A stretch of DNA of 25,283 bases from a virus, in the IMG/VR virus record IMGVR_UViG_3300031576_001277, positions 1-25,283 of that record. One strand, given 5' to 3'. Every line of letters begins with the position of its first letter. The first letter of the stretch is position 1. Positions 7,550-23,985 of the stretch are shown piece by piece. The translations under genes were made by a program, and so were the position numbers. The notes beneath the pieces are model-generated. The model was not told where the DNA came from, did no database searches, and saw only the letters and a list, made by a program, of their open reading frames with translations.

Positions 7550-7921
7550 CTATGCCGCCACCAAATTGCGGAATGTGACCACGTAATTTTTGCGGCTGCC
7601 AAACCAGCGACCCATGCCATCATTCGGACAGATCATCTTCGCTTGAAAGTCTGCATAGGTATCATCGTCCACCTTGGTGCGAATGTAGACCACTGCTGAT
7701 GCACCCGGGCAGAAGGTTCTCAATTGGGTATATTCCTCGATGGAAAGCAATTGGAATGTCCACGTGACAACCTTCGAACCAACGCCACGTGTCCCGCCGC
7801 TTCCCAAATTCACCACACGCGCAAACGGCATGAAATCGAACTGCGGCAATGGGACTGGCGTCGCCAGAGACTCAAGATTCGTCATGCCAACTTCTGTTGT
7901 GCCAATCATAAACTCTGCCAT
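7550..7921 (-). CDS. Distal tail-like protein
   Basis: A 123-aa protein between tape measure and tail-tip genes. It begins MAEFMIGTTEVGMTNLESLA, has a beta core (KVVTWTFQLLSIEEYTQLRT) and ends with GSRKNYVVTFRNLVAA. Small beta-sandwich proteins in this position form the ring joining tail tube and tip (Dit-like) or the lambda gpM-like tip proteins. There is no unique motif. The stop TAG directly follows the next gene's start (contact without overlap), indicating tight coupling. Confidence 0.55.
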   Translation of the reverse strand: MAEFMIGTTEVGMTNLESLATPVPLPQFDFMPFARVVNLGSGGTRGVGSKVVTWTFQLLSIEEYTQLRTFCPGASAVVYIRTKVDDDTYADFQAKMICPNDGMGRWFGSRKNYVVTFRNLVAA

Positions 7922-7935
7922 AATTTTCCTATTTC

Positions 7936-7990
7936 GCTCCCCTCTCCAAATTCGTCTTTTGAATTTGGGGAGGGGCTGGGGGTGGGGCTA
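7936..7990. repeat. GC-rich intergenic inverted repeat R1
   Basis: Arms CCCCTCTCCAAATTC (7939-7953) and GAATTTGGGGAGGGG (7961-7975), followed by CTGGGGGTGGGG. It lies between the tape measure stop and the distal tail gene's upstream region. Confidence 0.75.
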
Positions 7991-9745
7991 TGCGCCTCCC
8001 AATGCACCGATGAGCGTGTTCATGATCTGCTCATTGTTCTCGGCGATCATACTGCTCACCTGGCGCGTCGTGAGACCGCCCGCGAATTGCATGGTGATGT
8101 TTTGCTGATTCGAATTAGCCATATTGTTCACTGGTCTTGCCATCATGCGCGCGATATCATCCGGGTTCATGCTTTTCCTGAGACCCGATTGATATCCGCG
8201 ACCACTGAAGAGTCCAAGTTCTTCGAATACCGTACTGTCGGAGTGAATGCCAAGTTTATTTTTTATGGTGGTCAAAGCTGCAGCTGCAGCCTTTGCCGCC
8301 GCAGCGATCAATGACGGAATCCCAAGCAGCATCCCGTTGGCAAGACCAGAAAGAATGTTCTTCCCAATCTGACCCCAGTTAACATTTGTGAATGCCGAAG
8401 AAATGTATTCACGCACACGTGTCAGCGACGTGCGCAGAAAGTTCATGAAATTCGACCAGGCTTGCTGGAAGCCTGATAGACCATCGAAGATCGCCGATAA
8501 TCTTGCCTTGAAATTATTCAACAATTCTTGAAGAATGGTAAGTGTTGTGGCTGTATCACCCTGCAGGAACGCCATAAAAGCCTGCCATAATTTCTTCATC
8601 ACCAGAATCGCTCCGTTGATCACATCCCGCATTCCAAAAATATTGTATTTCCACGCCAGATATAGAATGCCAACAGCGATCGCAATTGCCGCCAGGACGA
8701 GCAGGATTGGAGCCAGCGCAGTAAGTAGCGCACCGATTGCAGGCAATAATGTTCCTGTTATTACGGCTCCGACCGTTCCCAATGCCGCTCCAATCACAGG
8801 TAAAGTAATTCCCAAGCCACCTAACATGGTAACAAAAGCTGAAATGCTCGAAATCGCGCTGATGATCGTTCCGATAAACATGAGCACGGGTCCGGCAAGC
8901 GCTACAAGTGCAAGCAAAACCATGATGGTCTTCTGCAGGAAAGGCGGCATTGCCGAAAATGTTTCAACCATTTTGGTGAGACCTGCGATCAAAGGCAAAA
9001 GCATCGGAATGAGCGCCCCGCCAACAACCTCTTTCATATCGTCGAATGCGTTTGTTAACTGTGCCATCTTGCCAGCGGTGGTGTCCCCCGCCGCCTTCGC
9101 CAGCCCGCCGAACTCAACTTCTAATTCCTTTAGGATAATATTTTGAGCCGAAGCAATATCATTGACCGCCATGAATGCCTTGATCTGGTCTTCCTGTTCG
9201 TCGGTCAGCATGACACCCACACGCCGCAAGGCTGTTACGCCCTGAATAGGATCATTCAAAGCCTTACCCAATTGCACGGATGCGCTTTCGATGCTGCCGA
9301 ATTTCTCTGCCATGTTGAGCATGGCTTCCGTTGCCATTGGGAAAACATCCTTCCCGATCTTGGTAAAGGTCAACAACATGGATTGACCCGACATAATTTC
9401 ATCGTCGGAAAATTTCGTAACCTTCTGCAGTTCGGCAGCCATCTTTTCGATTTCGTCTGCCGTTACTCCCGCCGCTCCCCCAGTGGACTTCAGGACTGCG
9501 TTTAATTCTGCCAGCACACTTTCAGCTTCAACGGCAGAATCAACGGATGCTTTGAAGAAGGCAACGATTGGCACAGTGAGACCCAGAGTCATCAACCCGC
9601 CTATTTTCTGCATCCCCCCACCGATGGCAAGCCCAGCTTGTTGAAGGTTTTTCAGGCTTGACATGCCTGAAGCCACACCAGATTTTATTCCGCTGGCATC
9701 CAGCGAAACTTTTCCGTATGCGCTACCAAGATTGATCGCCATCAT
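7988..9745 (-). CDS. Tail tape measure protein
   Basis: A 585-aa protein in the expected place after the chaperone. It opens with AINLGSAYGKVSLDASGIKS, typical of tape measures, followed by a helical region (DEIEKMAAELQKVTKFSDDE), a long hydrophobic middle (about residues 255-375, several potential membrane segments, used in DNA entry), and a glycine/alanine-rich C-terminal part. By the usual rule of about 0.15 nm per residue the tail would be roughly 85-90 nm (inference). Two ATGs stand in tandem at the start. No lysozyme or peptidase motif is seen. The stop lies in repeat R1. Confidence 0.88.
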   Translation of the reverse strand: MMAINLGSAYGKVSLDASGIKSGVASGMSSLKNLQQAGLAIGGGMQKIGGLMTLGLTVPIVAFFKASVDSAVEAESVLAELNAVLKSTGGAAGVTADEIEKMAAELQKVTKFSDDEIMSGQSMLLTFTKIGKDVFPMATEAMLNMAEKFGSIESASVQLGKALNDPIQGVTALRRVGVMLTDEQEDQIKAFMAVNDIASAQNIILKELEVEFGGLAKAAGDTTAGKMAQLTNAFDDMKEVVGGALIPMLLPLIAGLTKMVETFSAMPPFLQKTIMVLLALVALAGPVLMFIGTIISAISSISAFVTMLGGLGITLPVIGAALGTVGAVITGTLLPAIGALLTALAPILLVLAAIAIAVGILYLAWKYNIFGMRDVINGAILVMKKLWQAFMAFLQGDTATTLTILQELLNNFKARLSAIFDGLSGFQQAWSNFMNFLRTSLTRVREYISSAFTNVNWGQIGKNILSGLANGMLLGIPSLIAAAAKAAAAALTTIKNKLGIHSDSTVFEELGLFSGRGYQSGLRKSMNPDDIARMMARPVNNMANSNQQNITMQFAGGLTTRQVSSMIAENNEQIMNTLIGALGGA

Positions 9746-9754
9746 TTACTCCAA

Positions 9755-9803
9755 AACAAAACAGACGTTCAACACGGATGCGAACCCGTGCAGAACGTCT
9801 GCC
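9755..9803 (-). terminator. Intrinsic terminator before the tape measure gene
   Basis: Stem AGACGTTC (9800-9793) with GAACGTCT (9770-9763), inner stem CACGG (9790-9786) with CCGTG (9777-9773), and the T-rich tail GTTTTGTTTT directly after. It ends the E1 cassette and leaves only the ribosome-binding site GGAG before the tape measure ATG. Between the amber-interrupted frame and this hairpin nothing else is seen. Confidence 0.8.
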
Positions 9804-9822
9804 TTGTTGAGCCGTGCTGAAT

Positions 9823-10161
9823 TTACGTTGTAATGCCCGAAGGTGTGATGAAGTGACCGCCTAACCTCGGGATCTGCTTGCTGATCTGCCCAATTATGAA
9901 AGATGCCTCGTTGTTCCAGATGTAAAGCACCTTTGGTGATCGAGCCTACATCTCGCTGATCGAATGCAACATGCGGATATTCTCGAACAGATCGAGCGCT
10001 TCCTTCTCGATGCCCTTTGTTTGCAGATAATATTGAAGGGTATCGCTGGCGTAATCCTCCATCGCAGTCAGGAACTGACGTGAGAACATCGGCTACTCTC
10101 GTTCGATAGGTTCCTCCGGCGACTCGACTAGCACTGCCTCTTTCGTGGTTCTCTTTCTCAT
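9823..10161 (-). pseudogene. Amber-interrupted small gene of E1 cassette
   Basis: A 112-codon frame from the ATG at 10161, which has AAGGAG 8 nt upstream, to a TAA at 9823. It is broken by in-frame TAG codons at 23 (10095-10093) and 72 (9948-9946). The parts read MRKRTTKEAVLVESPEEPIE, then PMFSRQFLTAMEDYASDTLQ and more, then VLYIWNNEASFIIGQISKQ. The middle part alone (ATG at 10089) could give a 47-aa protein. PMF at codon 24 and WNN at 82 match PMF at 26 and W-F-N-N at 80 of the E2 protein, so the two may be distant paralogues. Other genes here end in TAG, so general TAG reassignment is not supported: decay, or local readthrough. Confidence 0.5.
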
Positions 10162-10334
10162 TTGACCGTCTCCTTAACAAAGTGCTGCCACAGAATGAAC
10201 ACTGTCGGGAGACGGTCATCTCGGCGGCAACTTCGTTTTCTGTGGCAGCACTTAGCCATGAATCTAGATTTTGATTGAAGGCAATGTTCCTTAAAAAACA
10301 AACTGCCGCCTTCATGGATGAGATTGACCGTCTC
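10162..10334 (-). ncRNA. E1 structured leader RNA (candidate translational switch)
   Basis: About 173 nt, paralogous to E2. In order: 5' copy GAGACGGTCAA (10334-10324); helix P1 CCATGAA (10317-10311) with TTCATGG (10262-10256); inside it GGCGGC (10310-10305) and hairpin TGTTT-TTTAAG-GAACA; helix P2, 14 bp (10251-10238 with 10195-10182); in the P2 loop GCCGCC (10228-10223) and antisense GACCGTCTCC (10217-10208); then the true site AAGGAGACGGTCAA and ATG. The antisense can pair 9 bp with the 5' copy or 10 bp with the ribosome-binding site. E1 and E2 keep GAAGGCGGC, the TTTAAG loop, CTGCCAC/GTGGCAG, GCCGCC, ACTTTG and GTTAAG, while paired positions change together. Confidence 0.75.
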
Positions 10335-10343
10335 GTTAGATTC

Positions 10344-10372
10344 ATTGTAAGTCTGCTTTCATCAGTTGTCAA
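10344..10372 (-). promoter_or_regulatory. Sigma70-like promoter of E1 cassette
   Basis: Minus strand TTGACA (10372-10367), a 17-nt spacer and TACAAT (10349-10344). It begins just after the chaperone stop codon. The -10 box ends exactly 9 nt before the first GAGACGGTC, as in cassette E2. Confidence 0.75.
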
Positions 10373-10385
10373 GGAGTTGACCAAG

Positions 10386-10667
10386 TTACCAAGTTCCATC
10401 TGCGTTGATCCTTATTCTTTTCTTTACAAGATTTTTCGCGCTTCGATAGCCGCGCTTTATTGCGCCGATCAGGCCTGTTTCTTCGAAACCTGCGAAGGCA
10501 TCCTTGCCGTTGCTCAGGTTATTTTCAACCTGCCGCCCAACAACCAGACACGCCTCGTCTAATTGCCAGGCGGCGAGCTCGGTTTCGAACATAAAGAAAT
10601 CGCTCGGCTTTTTTCCGTAGGCAGTCGCGGAGTTATATAGTCTCCACAGGTTTATTTTGTTCGTCAC
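10386..10667 (-). CDS. Tail assembly chaperone, C-terminal (gpT-like) frame
   Basis: 93 codons from a GTG at 10667, in the +1 frame relative to the upstream gene and overlapping it by 35 nt. The sequence NLWRLYNSATAYGKKPSDFF followed by ETELAAWQLDEACL is the usual signature of gpT-type extensions (W-R, G-K-P-S, A-x-x-L-D). The GTG lacks a ribosome-binding site, so production as a fusion by frameshift is likelier than a separate start; CCC TTT C at 10674-10668, just upstream, is a plausible +1 slip site. A GT fusion would be about 240 aa. Confidence 0.65.
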   Translation of the reverse strand: MTNKINLWRLYNSATAYGKKPSDFFMFETELAAWQLDEACLVVGRQVENNLSNGKDAFAGFEETGLIGAIKRGYRSAKNLVKKRIRINADGTW

Positions 10668-11088
10668 GAAAGGGACGGATGTTTTCCGCCTCCCTGTTCA
10701 CGAAAGAGAAGATCGCCATTTTGTCGTCTGCTGGAATTTCACCCAGCAGGATATGTGCATCGTCTGCCTGCGCGCCGATCATTGGTTCCACCAGGCACAG
10801 CTCCACCAACACATTCAACATCTGGTTGAACTCGCCGGTATTCTTGGCAAGCAATTCCAGATCGAATTCTTTCGCACCTGTTTCTGATGCATCCTTTGCC
10901 AGGCCGATGATCGCATCGGGCAGCTTCCCTGTGAACATCAAATCGGTCATGCTCACATCACGCAGTTTGACATGCAATCCGCTGGGTAATGTCTGCTCAT
11001 GAACGCGGCTGGCTCTCCATTCGGAAAGGTTTTTTTGTGTTGCTTGTTGCGATTGCTTCAACCGATCTAATCCATTATTTTTTGACAT
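10633..11088 (-). CDS. Tail assembly chaperone, N-terminal (gpG-like) frame
   Basis: A 151-aa protein between the major tail and tape measure genes, the usual place of lambda gpG-like chaperones. It is helical and acidic, with LPSGLHVKLRDVSMTDLMFTGKLPD (residues 36-60, shown in part) followed by a helical region. Such proteins coat the tape measure during tail assembly. Its last 12 codons overlap the following frame, which suggests a frameshift extension. GGAG stands close before the ATG. Confidence 0.75.
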   Translation of the reverse strand: MSKNNGLDRLKQSQQATQKNLSEWRASRVHEQTLPSGLHVKLRDVSMTDLMFTGKLPDAIIGLAKDASETGAKEFDLELLAKNTGEFNQMLNVLVELCLVEPMIGAQADDAHILLGEIPADDKMAIFSFVNREAENIRPFRDEQNKPVETI

Positions 11089-11104
11089 GGCTCCTCAAGG
11101 GTTT

Positions 11105-11143
11105 GCTGATGGGCAGTGTAGGAAACACCACTCGCCCATCAGC
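11105..11143 (-). terminator. Strong hairpin after the major tail gene
   Basis: A 10-bp perfect stem GCTGATGGGC (11143-11134) with GCCCATCAGC (11114-11105), with extra partial pairing inside. No T-run follows, so it may slow or partly stop transcription, or protect the upstream message from decay, rather than end it. Confidence 0.5.
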
Positions 11144-11160
11144 CTTTATGAATATCGAAC

Positions 11161-12000
11161 TTATGCGGTCTCGAAATCAATGACCGTATTCGCAAGCGTC
11201 TGACCGAACACGTCGGTGACGCCTGGCACGATCACCAGGTGATCTGTCGCTGCGCCCAAATTGCTCGAAGGGTTCAGCGTGACAACCTTGCGATTCGTTG
11301 AAATCGTGCGCGCCACTGTCACGGGTACACCTGCGGCCGTGGTCAACATGATCCCTTCTTCCTCGCCTGAAGCGAGAGCATTGCTGAAGGTGAGAACAAC
11401 ATCCACACCCACAGCCACGCCAGTTGCACCATCCGCCGGAACGCTCGAAAGCGTGAAGGCGGGCGGAGTACCTGGCAGAGCGGGCAGATCGTCCGCAGTC
11501 TCGTTGGCAACCACATCGTATGCCTTGCCCGAAACTTTCACGCCGGTAAATTCCGTATCCAGCATAAAGAACTCGGCGCGCTTGAACGTGCCTTTCGGCG
11601 ATGATGTGAGCTTTGCCTTGAAGATCTTGATGTGCACATCATCGCCTTCATCGCCCAGCGATTTCCCATAGATCTTGAAATACGGATACGTGGTCGAATC
11701 GCCCTGCAGGGTTGCGACCTGGTTCGGCGTGGAACCAGTCACGGCATAGTCGTGACCCGTCATCAGCGACAAGGCACTGAGCGGGTATCCCCCCTGCTTG
11801 AAGGTGCCTTTGACACCGATCGGCTGGGTCACAATGCCTTGCAGATCGTCGTTGCCGTAAAACTCGCCGGTCACGACCATCTCTTCAAAACCGAGTTCCA
11901 ACGCGGCAGGCAGGCTCACGCGTACGGTCCCTGCCAGGTTCTCGATAATGATTTCTTTCAATCCGAACGGCTTATCGTTTTGTCCAGGTGTTGCAGTCAT
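11161..12000 (-). CDS. Major tail tube protein with C-terminal Ig-like domain
   Basis: A 279-aa protein. Residues 1-175 have the beta-rich look of tail tube proteins (LKEIIIENLAGTVRVSLPA, FKIYGKSLGDEGDDVHIKIF, AEFFMLDTEFTGVKV). Residues about 178-279 form an SbsA/Big_5-type Ig-like domain (SSVPADGATGVAVGVDVVLT, then LTTAAGVPVTVARTIS and VIVPGVTDVFGQTLANTV). Such C-terminal Ig domains decorate the outside of some siphovirus tails and may bind cell-surface sugars. AAGGAG stands 7 nt before the ATG. A strong hairpin follows the stop and may set off this highly needed gene from the next. Confidence 0.75.
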   Translation of the reverse strand: MTATPGQNDKPFGLKEIIIENLAGTVRVSLPAALELGFEEMVVTGEFYGNDDLQGIVTQPIGVKGTFKQGGYPLSALSLMTGHDYAVTGSTPNQVATLQGDSTTYPYFKIYGKSLGDEGDDVHIKIFKAKLTSSPKGTFKRAEFFMLDTEFTGVKVSGKAYDVVANETADDLPALPGTPPAFTLSSVPADGATGVAVGVDVVLTFSNALASGEEEGIMLTTAAGVPVTVARTISTNRKVVTLNPSSNLGAATDHLVIVPGVTDVFGQTLANTVIDFETA

Positions 12001-12025
12001 AACAAATCTCCTTTTTTCTAATTTC

Positions 12026-12108
12026 CGTTCCCCTAAATTCGTGCTTTCCGAATTTAGGGGAAAGCGGCGACATCGTCCCGGTGTTCTTCCGGGAAGCCGA
12101 AGGGGGTC
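12026..12108. repeat. GC-rich intergenic inverted repeat R2 (long)
   Basis: Arms CCCCTAAATTC (12030-12040) and GAATTTAGGGG (12050-12060), then AAAGCGGCGACATCGTC and a second hairpin CCGGTGTTCTTCCGGG, ending in AGCCGAAGGGGGT. It is the longest copy, with an extra stem in the side arm, lying between the tail terminator and the major tail protein genes. Confidence 0.75.
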
Positions 12109-12127
12109 AGGTTGGGTTGCAGTGAAG

Positions 12128-12541
12128 TTACAATTTCCTCACCACATTGAATCTCAACGAACCCAGTGGACAATCTAATGCCTGGTCTCGTTGTTGATAC
12201 ACTCCGCCTACATACTCCATATTCCATATCTGCCCGATCTGTTGTTCGTTGAGATCGGCAAACGCGAACGCCATCGCAGGCTCGATGACGGAATAACCCG
12301 AGCGTTGATAAAAATAAAGCACCGCCGTTGTGCGCACGCTCGTCAAATACGGTCCGGCGGAAACCTCATTCGGGATTTTGATTAACGCGCACGGCTTGAT
12401 CTCCTTCGTGGTTGCATCGAATGCCGATGGCGTATCCTGCCTGTTGATCTCCTCCACGTCGTTATGAATACTGCCGGTCAACAGAGCCACCAATGGAGCG
12501 TCCGCTTGCAACGCTGTTTTGATATCATCACTCAGTGACAT
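12128..12541 (-). CDS. Tail terminator-like protein
   Basis: A 137-aa alpha/beta protein placed between the neck/portal group and the major tail protein. The N-terminal helix (SLSDDIKTALQADAPLVALL) and the later strands TTAVLYFYQRSGYSV and SLRFNVVRKL fit the small tail-terminator or tail-to-head joining proteins (gpU/gp17-like) that cap the tail tube. The start has GGAG 5 nt upstream. There is no unique motif; position and size carry the call. Confidence 0.5.
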   Translation of the reverse strand: MSLSDDIKTALQADAPLVALLTGSIHNDVEEINRQDTPSAFDATTKEIKPCALIKIPNEVSAGPYLTSVRTTAVLYFYQRSGYSVIEPAMAFAFADLNEQQIGQIWNMEYVGGVYQQRDQALDCPLGSLRFNVVRKL

Positions 12542-12552
12542 ACAAACTCCAG

Positions 12553-12587
12553 CCTTCCCCCTTTAGGGGGAACGGGAAGGGGGTCAT
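12553..12587. repeat. GC-rich intergenic inverted repeat R3 (short)
   Basis: Arms CCTTCCCCC and GGGGGAACGG with a short core, followed by GAAGGGGGT. A reduced copy of the family described at 13800, between the gpF-like gene and the tail terminator gene. Confidence 0.65.
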
Positions 12588-12607
12588 CATTCTGCATTCA
12601 TCATTCA

Positions 12608-13780
12608 TCATTTCGTCAACTTCTCCAGATCTTCACTGAAAAGCCACACAGCCAGGTTGATCGCATTCGGCAAAACAGATTTGGACACATCGCCGCCGAG
12701 CATATTTTCATATTGATCTAACTCCGCCCAATCTTGCTCGCCCTTCAACCAGCCGTTCAACTTCGATGTGAATTCCTTTTCAGCCATCAGCACTGCCGTC
12801 TTGTAGCACAGGCAGTTCGGGTGCAACGGCAGTTCAATCGTGCCAACTTCATATACCCCATCCACTTCCTCGCCTCCTCGGGCAACGTCATCGCATTTGT
12901 CTGTTTTCCCATGTGCCGGGCTCAAATTTATCTTCTCCGCCTTCACCCACGGCTGGCTCGCCAAAATCTTATCGGTCGCTAGTGCATGAGCCTTTGAGAT
13001 CTCTGTACGTGAAAGCCTAAGCGCATTGTACGAAACGCCGCTTCCATCACATTCATCGCCGCGTAAGAGGCCCGTAGTATCGCCAGCTGCGATCTCGCTC
13101 TTCGTCCTTCCATACAACCGCGTCGAAGTCCAGCGCGGACAATCTTCATTCGCGCCCAGAAATTGTTCCAGATCCTTGGCGATATTCCACGCCGAATCGC
13201 CGTTCGTGATTCCCTTCAACAGTACGACATTGATTCCATCCTGCGCTTCGCGGTCCACGTTCCAGATCCGCGCTGAGAGATTTAATGAGTCGCCATACAA
13301 ATGCTCACTCGCAGCATTCAAAAGCACCGACAACTGCGGCGAAAAAACACCGTCTTCCACAGATTCAAAAAGGTTTTCTTCGCGCTCTTTGCGCTCTTCG
13401 CGGTTCAAAAGATTTGGCAGTATAAGGCGCTCGTGTGCCACCGCCATCACCCCGAACGGAATGCTCGCCGCCTCCACACGCAATCGCTGAAATTCACTCT
13501 TCCAAATCTCGAACGTCTTCTCCCACATCTCCAGCAACTTGATCTGCACCTGGTAGCCTGTTGCGCCGTCCAACACCTGATCCTTGCCAGCCTTTTTCAA
13601 GATCAATGCTTGCGCCTTCTCGCTGAACTCGCCGAACAACTCATGCGTGCGACCTGTGAAATACAAATGCAAACGCACCACCGCTTTGAATGAAGCCTCG
13701 TACATCCGCGTCAACGGGATTTTCTCCAACTGCGTCAACAACTTCTTTTGCTGGCTCTTTGTTTCAACCATATCAAGCAT
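12608..13780 (-). CDS. Mu gpF-like minor head protein
   Basis: A 390-aa head morphogenesis protein, encoded directly after the portal as usual. The diagnostic C-terminal part reads RLSRTEISKAHALATDKIL, then LSPAHGKTDKCDD (about residues 287-297) and LPLHPNCLCY (317-326), the histidine/cysteine pattern of the Mu gpF family. The N-terminal half is helical. Residues 123-135 (NREERKEREENLF) are encoded by a low-complexity repeat of a genomic type (13377-13410) and look like an in-frame insertion in a linker. The start ATG has GGAG 7 nt upstream. The protein is thought to join portal and capsid and may be injected or processed. Confidence 0.85.
   Translation of the reverse strand: MLDMVETKSQQKKLLTQLEKIPLTRMYEASFKAVVRLHLYFTGRTHELFGEFSEKAQALILKKAGKDQVLDGATGYQVQIKLLEMWEKTFEIWKSEFQRLRVEAASIPFGVMAVAHERLILPNLLNREERKEREENLFESVEDGVFSPQLSVLLNAASEHLYGDSLNLSARIWNVDREAQDGINVVLLKGITNGDSAWNIAKDLEQFLGANEDCPRWTSTRLYGRTKSEIAAGDTTGLLRGDECDGSGVSYNALRLSRTEISKAHALATDKILASQPWVKAEKINLSPAHGKTDKCDDVARGGEEVDGVYEVGTIELPLHPNCLCYKTAVLMAEKEFTSKLNGWLKGEQDWAELDQYENMLGGDVSKSVLPNAINLAVWLFSEDLEKLTK
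13377..13410 (-). repeat. AACCGCGAAGAGCGCAAAG-type repeat inside the gpF-like gene
   Basis: The minus strand reads TTGAACCGCGAAGAGCGC then AAAGAGCGCGAAGAA, two units of a heptad-like A-A-A-G-A-G-C-G-C motif. Similar repeats are common between genes in Chloroflexota and Cyanobacteria (recalled, not searched). Here it is in frame and translated. Confidence 0.5.
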
Positions 13781-23310: not shown

Positions 23311-23338
23311 ATTATAGAATGTTTTCAGGATTTGTCAA
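23311..23338 (-). promoter_or_regulatory. Consensus sigma70-like promoter P1
   Basis: Minus strand TTGACA (23338-23333), a 16-nt spacer and TATAAT (23316-23311). Both hexamers are perfect consensus. The predicted start, near 23304, falls on the first base of terminator T1, so by default P1 would give only an RNA of about 50 nt. Confidence 0.75.
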
Positions 23339-23401
23339 TTAGCCACTCCCAGCATTCATCAGTCCCGCGTATTTCTACACGGGACCAAAATAAGCTAATT
23401 G
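23336..23401 (-). promoter_or_regulatory. Nested inverted repeats overlapping -35 of P1
   Basis: An outer inverted repeat CAATTAGC (23401-23394) and GCTAATTG (23343-23336) encloses a 10-bp hairpin with a GAAA loop (23385-23376 with 23371-23362). The outer right arm overlaps the TTGACA box of promoter P1 by three bases, so it could be an operator, or the inner hairpin could end transcripts of the 102-aa gene. There is no T-run after the inner hairpin. Confidence 0.45.
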
Positions 23402-23436
23402 CCTGTTCTTTACTTCTCTTTCGCATGATCAACGTT

Positions 23437-23745
23437 CTACCCGATCTCCCACTTTATTTCTTTCGTTGCATCTCCTACCGCTTCCGTTGTCATCTGGTTG
23501 TTGAACCATGAAACCAACCCATCGTGTTCACGCATATAGATTTGCGCTTGCATGATCAATATTATCAATTCCACCAGATGGTGCACATGCTTGTTGTTCG
23601 GTAACTCCTCTTCGATCCTCCTGTGCAATCTCAGCGCCAGCATCCTCAAAAAAACATCATCGAACATCGGCTTGTGGATAGGATCGAGCCACGTCCCCTC
23701 TTTATCTGAAACAACTACTTTTCGTTCATCAATTTTTGTATTCAT
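23437..23745 (-). CDS. Unknown 102-aa protein of E2 cassette
   Basis: The start chosen is the ATG at 23745, directly after the conserved AAAGG site at the end of leader E2; an in-frame ATG 19 codons upstream lies inside the leader structure and is unlikely. The protein is soluble, helical and charged, with N-terminal MNTKIDERKVVVSDKEG, then PMFDDVFLRMLALRLHRRI, a histidine-rich helix (NNKHVHHLVELI) and WFNNQMTTEAVGDATKEI near the end. No signal peptide, membrane segment or known motif is visible. It is the only gene between its own promoter and terminator T1, so it looks like a separately controlled accessory (moron) gene. The amber-interrupted frame of cassette E1 has PMF and WNN at nearly the same positions, a hint of common origin. 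Confidence 0.7.
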   Translation of the reverse strand: MNTKIDERKVVVSDKEGTWLDPIHKPMFDDVFLRMLALRLHRRIEEELPNNKHVHHLVELIILIMQAQIYMREHDGLVSWFNNQMTTEAVGDATKEIKWEIG

Positions 23746-23925
23746 TTGACGGGTGCCTTTCTTAACGCAAAGTCCTGCCACAGACTGACATCCTCCGGGC
23801 ACCCGTCAAGGCGGCGGCGACTCACTTTCCGTGGCAGGATTTTACCTGTGAATATAGGGGGTTGTTATTCGGAAGGCTGTCACTTAAATGACAAAGCCGC
23901 CTTCACAATTGCCTTTGACGGGTGC
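23746..23925 (-). ncRNA. E2 structured leader RNA (candidate translational switch)
   Basis: About 180 nt of 5' UTR ahead of the 102-aa gene, paralogous to E1 at 10162-10334. In order on the minus strand: a 5' copy of the ribosome-binding region (GCACCCGTCAAA, 23925-23914); helix P1 (23908-23902 with 23852-23846); inside it GGCGGC (23901-23896) and a hairpin TGTCA-TTTAAG-TGACA (23893-23878); helix P2, 12 bp (23839-23828 with 23784-23773); within the P2 loop GCCGCC (about 23818-23810), able to pair with GGCGGC, and the antisense TTGACGGGTGCC (23809-23798); last the true site GGCACCCGTCAA (23757-23746) and ATG. The antisense can pair 11 bp with the 5' copy or 12 bp with the ribosome-binding site. 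Relative to E1, helix changes are compensatory. No known riboswitch class was recognised. Confidence 0.75.
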
Positions 23926-23934
23926 AATGGTCAG

Positions 23935-23963
23935 ATTCTACACCTGAATCATTCACAAAACAA
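23935..23963 (-). promoter_or_regulatory. Sigma70-like promoter of E2 cassette
   Basis: On the minus strand TTGTTT (23963-23958), a 17-nt spacer and TAGAAT (23940-23935). The -10 box lies exactly 9 nt before the first copy of GCACCCGTC. That is the same geometry as the promoter of cassette E1, which is the main support for a rather weak -35 box. Confidence 0.55.
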
Positions 23964-23985
23964 CCCGAACGTGCGTTCTAATTTG

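Follow-up and report, generated by a model that had tools for sequence, protein, structure and literature searches.

Does a small transcription unit set among the tail genes of a phage belong to a family of mobile accessory genes, and what would hold such a family together? The question is raised by a cassette in IMG/VR virus record IMGVR_UViG_3300031576_001277, the whole of which (25,283 bases, with the genes on the minus strand) is referred to here as the window. The cassette runs from 10372 to 9755 on the minus strand, as do all its features given below, flanked upstream by G and GT, the genes for the tail assembly chaperones (10386–11088, minus), and downstream by the tape measure protein gene (7988–9745, minus). 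The two chaperone frames (10386–10667 and 10633–11088, minus) overlap, presumably as expected for a programmed frameshift of the G/GT type.

The cassette opens with a predicted promoter, TTGACA-17-TACAAT (10344–10372), which matches the consensus at 11/12 positions and is the best of nine promoter matches in 7900–13000, where 4.5 are expected. The leader that follows (about 180 nt, ending at the ATG at 10161) has the order A, P1, P2, hairpin, P1′, P3, P2′, C, P3′, B, start codon. Segment A (core 10325–10334), 8 nt after the −10 element, marks the predicted 5′ end of the transcript. P1 pairs 10311–10317 with 10256–10262, and P2 pairs GGCGGC (10305–10310) with GCCGCC (10223–10228), the latter within the loop of P3. 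The arms of P3 (10238–10253 and 10180–10195) form a perfect 16-bp inverted repeat. Segment C (10208–10219), in the loop of this long stem, is complementary both to A at the 5′ end and to B (10162–10173), which extends from the Shine-Dalgarno GG through the base preceding the start codon. An intrinsic-terminator-like hairpin (9755–9808) lies ahead of the tape measure gene; the 85 nt 5′ of that gene fold at −39.2 kcal/mol and have a T-rich tail, and the terminator is absent from the output of a consensus scanner. Across the cassettes found elsewhere these elements recur: predicted promoters are present in 15/15 (8–11/12 consensus, with a spacer of exactly 17 nt), A starts 6–9 nt past the −10 element in the same 15/15, and a terminator hairpin with a T-rich tail is present in 9/9 tail-site cassettes (−28 to −43 kcal/mol), whereas five empty junctions fold at just −11 to −19 kcal/mol.

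The preliminary description of this unit as promoter, leader, small frame and terminator therefore holds for the promoter, the leader and the hairpin, and needs amending for the small frame, which runs from the ATG to a TAA over 112 codons (9823–10161) and has TAG at codons 23 and 72. This frame aligns with the intact genes of L004 and L005, and because of the two in-frame TAG codons the gene of the window is probably a broken copy, although its leader is intact. Amber recoding is not favoured, since 7 of the 25 genes in the window end in TAG. An overlapping 217-aa frame (9746–10399) was discarded as the cassette gene, being without a family match or other support.

The second cassette, E2, was said to be organized in the same way, and it does have the same layout and the same leader. 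Its gene (23437–23745, 102 aa) is preceded by a weak promoter, TTGTTT-17-TAGAAT (23935–23963, 8/12), and by a leader of the same RNA class (23738–23935, with A at 23926–23915, C at 23809–23798 and B at 23757–23746), all on the minus strand. A covariance model built on six leaders scores the two window copies at 162 and 175 bits, values that are high by construction, as both are among the six. The idea that one regulatory module governs both cassettes emerges stronger than originally claimed, on the homology of the leaders and the three-strand covariation described below. The two leaders are not predicted to cross-pair, their cores pairing at −18.8 to −23.1 kcal/mol within a leader and at −4.0 to −7.6 kcal/mol between leaders.

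Several features of the E2 neighbourhood are recorded here in their own right. The palindrome GAACGCACGTTC/GAACRNRYGTTC (23967–23978) lies just upstream of the E2 promoter; GAACRNRYGTTC, which we take to be LexA/DinR-box-like, has one exact occurrence in the window and is also present at L002 2323–2334, L015 2390–2401, L084 8226–8237, L080 2649–2660 and L088 5561–5572. In L080 and L088 it occupies the spacer of a full promoter 5′ of a small-terminase-like gene, without the switch leader; a different structured leader follows that promoter (L080 2640–2740, L088 5550–5650), with a hairpin that covaries (GAACGTCCAA/TTGGGCGTTC versus GAACAGCCA/TGGCTGTTC). At 23338–23245 (minus) of the window a 12/12 promoter is followed at once by a terminator-like hairpin, giving a possible RNA of about 60 nt beside E2; as an antisense regulator, this sRNA-like unit (23310–23245) was rejected, since its pairing with the leaders is matched by that of shuffles. 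A 33-codon frame after E2 (23328–23426, minus) resembles the start of a 190-aa gene that follows the L084 cassette (L084 8845–9417). An HNH endonuclease was also considered as a mover of the cassettes and set aside: the L084 neighbour looks HNH-like by eye, and Pfam did not confirm it.

Morons, as one account defines them (PMC2629481), are usually independently expressed genes found, on comparing relatives, to be inserted in a phage operon. A viral scan with a chaperone alignment gave 54 loci, of which eight were unmeasurable (cut or without a hit) and 46 could be measured from chaperone stop to tape measure start. Cassettes of 523–1429 nt are inserted at 10 of the 46 junctions (L025, L026, L030, L036, L039, L045, L046, L058, L059 and L060), and in the other 36 the junction is empty, so that not all relatives carry the cassette, universal presence being what would have spoken against a moron. 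Emptiness was confirmed by direct reading in L003, L007, L008, L009 and phage record KX853513; the apparent gaps of 229–232 in L066, L068, L072 and L073 proved on reading to be a misplaced tape measure start in L066 and L072, and L068 and L073 were counted empty by likeness to these. The covariance model detects the leader at nine of the ten cassette junctions and also in L057, which is cut at its end; L058, on the contig of L005, retains promoter, A, B and gene but lacks the switch stem. L056 and L057 are 98.8% identical over 2836 nt and diverge exactly at the junction, where only L057 enters a cassette. The empty junction of L029 retains GATTGACATGACCAAA, resembling the promoter of the L006 cassette, which implies that cassettes are also lost. 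On the chaperone tree the cassette-bearing group requires seven changes, at least four of them forced; these counts are indicative only, with L044 and L065 (cut before the junction) labelled as lacking a cassette and the shared L056/L057 row as having one. The absence of the cassette from most relatives suggests that its gene is dispensable for virion assembly, and ordinary recombination would give the same pattern of presence and absence as active mobility.

The tail junction is one of several sites. A nucleotidyltransferase is encoded upstream of E2; used as a query it gave 55 loci, of which four carry the leader (L081, L084, L085 and L087), L085 and L087 being on the contigs of L015 and L002, respectively. 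On the L081 contig the tail junction is empty (L031); on that of L026 (also L083) the tail site is occupied by a cassette and no leader match lies near the nucleotidyltransferase; the window carries the leader at both sites. When 400 genomes from the order to which G006 belongs were searched with model R1, G006 itself and one weak match, G408 (30.2 bits), came up; on reading, G408 has the complete A/C/B layout. A second model, including A:C and P2, found a further copy on the G408 contig, itself outside the model, at 72 bits. It is flanked by a major-tail-like gene on one side and, on the other, by a small gene that precedes a tape measure gene; the first copy is situated before an integrase-like gene. 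Two cassettes with a single RNA thus occur together in another phage as well; G408 is a Chloroflexota prophage-like contig distinct from the window phage. One leader copy occurs in a contig of an Anaerolineaceae metagenome bin, identical in sequence to virus contig L015, and the G408 contig is grouped in the same order as that bin copy. The genome draws (396, 400, 400, 21 and 366) overlap and are not additive. The host is likely to be found in Anaerolineae. Cassettes at other sites in other phages, with the 10 occupied junctions and the L056/L057 split, bear out the moron-like form first proposed for the tail-site unit.

What joins these cassettes is most evident in the pairing of A and B with C. 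Covariation was assessed in 17 leaders from 15 records, with 15 distinct A/C combinations and, in the 16 that have B, 14 distinct B/C combinations. Core A:C pairs are standard in 150/150 cases (mean 108.2 when C is reshuffled among leaders) and B:C pairs in 152/154 (mean 114.6); in neither test did any of 10,000 reshufflings, which ignore relatedness among the leaders, reach the observed value. Changes on both sides occur at 9/10 A:C positions and 9/11 B:C positions. An earlier count in 13 leaders, over a longer stretch with one flanking position that the later counts omit, gave 115/120 for A:C and 124/132 for B:C. P3 is paired in 110/110 cells (15 leaders, 10 distinct). P2 (48/49 cells, 15 leaders; 5/10,000 reshufflings reach the observed value) and P1 (41/42 cells, 15 leaders; 90/10,000) vary less and are weaker tests. 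When 11 leaders are aligned with MAFFT from sequence alone, the A:C helix is 100% paired and 7/9 of its pairs have changed on both strands; sliding the whole structure as a control gives 30–53% paired, and none of 500 shuffles matches the whole structure. Two comparisons give the clearest single events: L006 differs from L023/L025 by a single base altered jointly in A, C and B, and L045 and L046 differ by 4 per 1000 nt, two of the differences being a compensatory A:C pair with B unaltered (L046 has one B:C mismatch).

Two controls bear on the choice of segments. In 1.18 Mb, a layout search blind to sequence picked out 13 distinct leaders, against zero in the reversed sequence; it missed 3 of the 16 leaders then known (L004, L046 and L057). 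In shuffled regions a perfect 10-mer for A and B arose in 0–4 of 1000. In L005 a short form (9480–9550) consists of the promoter, A, B some 19 nt further on, and the gene. C and the stem are missing, so either A and B may remain in place where there is no switch, or its loss is recent. With Rfam 15 at the gathering score, no matches were obtained in the window, L136, L134, L026, L081 or L046, and permissive thresholds gave matches far below the cut-off only; in the open-access literature searched, including the available text of PMC9004378, PMC2629481, PMC13273304 and PMC11228461, the leader is undescribed. It appears to be a previously undescribed RNA common to a small family of phage genes.

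The tail leader folds at −62.9 kcal/mol (z −4.2), with 1 of 200 shuffles equally good. Its minimum-energy fold contains B:C, that of the E2 leader A:C, and the energies of the two states, calculated without the pseudoknot, lie up to about 9 kcal/mol apart in either direction, which is in keeping with a bistable switch. The covariation of A:C and B:C supports competition for C. As judged by covariation and predicted energies, the leader has the mutually exclusive structures of a riboswitch, one of them hiding the ribosome-binding site.

We consider it probable that these cassettes are morons of one family, controlled in common by a bistable switch of translation in which A:C pairing would be the on state and B:C pairing the off state. 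Each member would be an accessory gene, equipped with a promoter and terminator of its own, that phages gain and lose among their late genes, and the members would have one cis-acting RNA leader in common. In this leader two copies of one sequence, A at the 5′ terminus and B by the start codon at the ribosome-binding site, would compete for C in the P3 loop. Given its position 6–9 nt after the −10 element, A would be transcribed first and could pair with C as C emerges; A:C, stacked with P2, would leave the ribosome-binding site free (ON). B, the last to emerge, could take C from A, and B:C together with P3 would form an H-type pseudoknot hiding the Shine-Dalgarno sequence to about the base before the start codon (OFF). 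Translation would then be controlled by the choice between A:C and B:C, and a signal, perhaps a small molecule or protein bound to the conserved core, would tip the balance. The observations on which this reading is built are the presence and absence of the cassette, the homology of the leaders, and the covariation of A:C, B:C, P3 and, weakly, P1 and P2. Against it count the short form of L005, the B:C mismatch of L046, the broken gene behind an intact leader at the tail site of the window, and the gap of up to about 9 kcal/mol between the two states. The core is conserved in most leaders but eroded in L045/L046, L081 and L134, which also counts against it, being unusual for a small-molecule aptamer. 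A wider proposal, made tentatively, is that of a new class of mobile, phage-borne RNA switches in which a rewritable three-strand code (A identical to B, both complementary to C) insulates each copy from its paralogues, and through which accessory genes scattered over the genomes respond to a single shared signal of infection or of the state of the host.

Other uses of the same RNA were weighed. The leader might sort transcripts by origin, the gene being silent on read-through late mRNA and translated only from own-promoter transcripts starting at A, or the reverse. The spacing between A and the −10 element in every cassette checked, by which A and the transcript 5′ end coincide, and the location of the tail-site cassettes in late operons are in keeping with such sorting, but A is present in both kinds of transcript and the same leader is also found outside tail operons, and we regard this explanation as unlikely.

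Alternatively, the leader might belong to the mRNA of a type I toxin-antitoxin-like system. Its folds would hold back translation while the mRNA is being made, and the outcome would be decided by an antisense RNA rather than a ligand, as in timP, whose 5′ UTR combines a pseudoknot with mutually exclusive folds and sequesters the ribosome-binding site (PMC11228461). The promoter-terminator unit of about 60 nt beside E2 could supply such an RNA, but its pairing with the leaders does not exceed that of shuffles, and no opposite-strand promoter-like site was found in 9755–10372 or 23437–23980, though such an RNA could act in trans. The products, of 95–173 aa (52 aa in L134), are also unlike small membrane toxins: among 13 cassette proteins GRAVY is −0.60 to 0.12 and the best 19-residue window at most 1.64, so that none fits a small hydrophobic toxin. 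Such a system seems to us quite improbable.

Control by a leader peptide, in which translation of a short upstream frame (MKAAxxI) starting in P1 would disrupt A:C, is very improbable. The motif [AG]TG AAR GCG GCN with an in-frame stop about seven codons on is found in L002, L004, L006, L015, L023, L026 and L057, but L045/L046 have no start codon, the tail leader, L036 and L081 have no early stop, and the Shine-Dalgarno sequence is not steady; a conserved upstream frame is thus not universal. That A and B are no more than direct repeats created when a mobile element inserted, their match to C being incidental, is scarcely credible, since the repeats of L005, about 19 nt apart without C, are outweighed by the compensatory changes, C changing along with A and B in every leader and A and C changing without B in L045/L046, which already contradict it.

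As for the products, most cassettes encode one family of about 100–124 aa that has no known relatives; the L002 protein has 173 aa with an insert, and L015, L134 and L136 encode other small proteins. This diversity of products under one RNA argues against a leader that senses its own product. Pfam, PHROGs and PADLOC gave no convincing match for the cassette proteins. An AlphaFold2 model of the L026 protein has four helices (pLDDT 72.5, pTM 0.61), and Foldseek searches of it against BFVD and the PDB gave no match under E 0.9. Our guess is that the helical product of about 100 aa acts on the host or on competing phages. As a separate observation, the insert of L002 interrupts its E2-type gene (1577–2095, minus) midway through the helical domain and adds about 55 codons in frame.

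Morons have been described as single, independent genes, and to our knowledge no moron family is characterized by an RNA switch that its members share. The cassettes resemble the morons of lambdoid and P22-like phages in their predicted promoter and terminator and in their variable content at a fixed junction, and differ from them in that the members have one complex RNA leader in common and recur at several junctions. In translational riboswitches one strand hides the Shine-Dalgarno sequence and another competes for it (anti-SD and anti-anti-SD). The leader follows the same logic, but its competitor and target are the same 10–12 nt sequence, rewritten in step between leaders. The timP leader of the timPR type I toxin-antitoxin system likewise has exclusive 5′ UTR folds, a pseudoknot, a hidden ribosome-binding site and control by structure rather than cleavage; as far as the available text goes, it differs in its enterobacterial chromosomal location, its small membrane toxin and its antisense TimR, and does not have the three-strand design of A identical to B and complementary to C (PMC11228461). 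The glutamine riboswitch of phage Melnitz is a structured regulatory RNA among phage genes, of a kind described as rare in phages (PMC9004378); it belongs to a known class, whereas the present leader matches no Rfam family.

A triplet covariation that reveals both conformations from sequence alone is rare, and it makes the switch testable with a few point mutations. If a dispersed moron family is indeed tied together by one RNA switch, phages would share a regulatory currency for their accessory genes, and a ligand, if one exists, would make the leader a new class of riboswitch, from viruses whose hosts, the Chloroflexota, are poorly studied.
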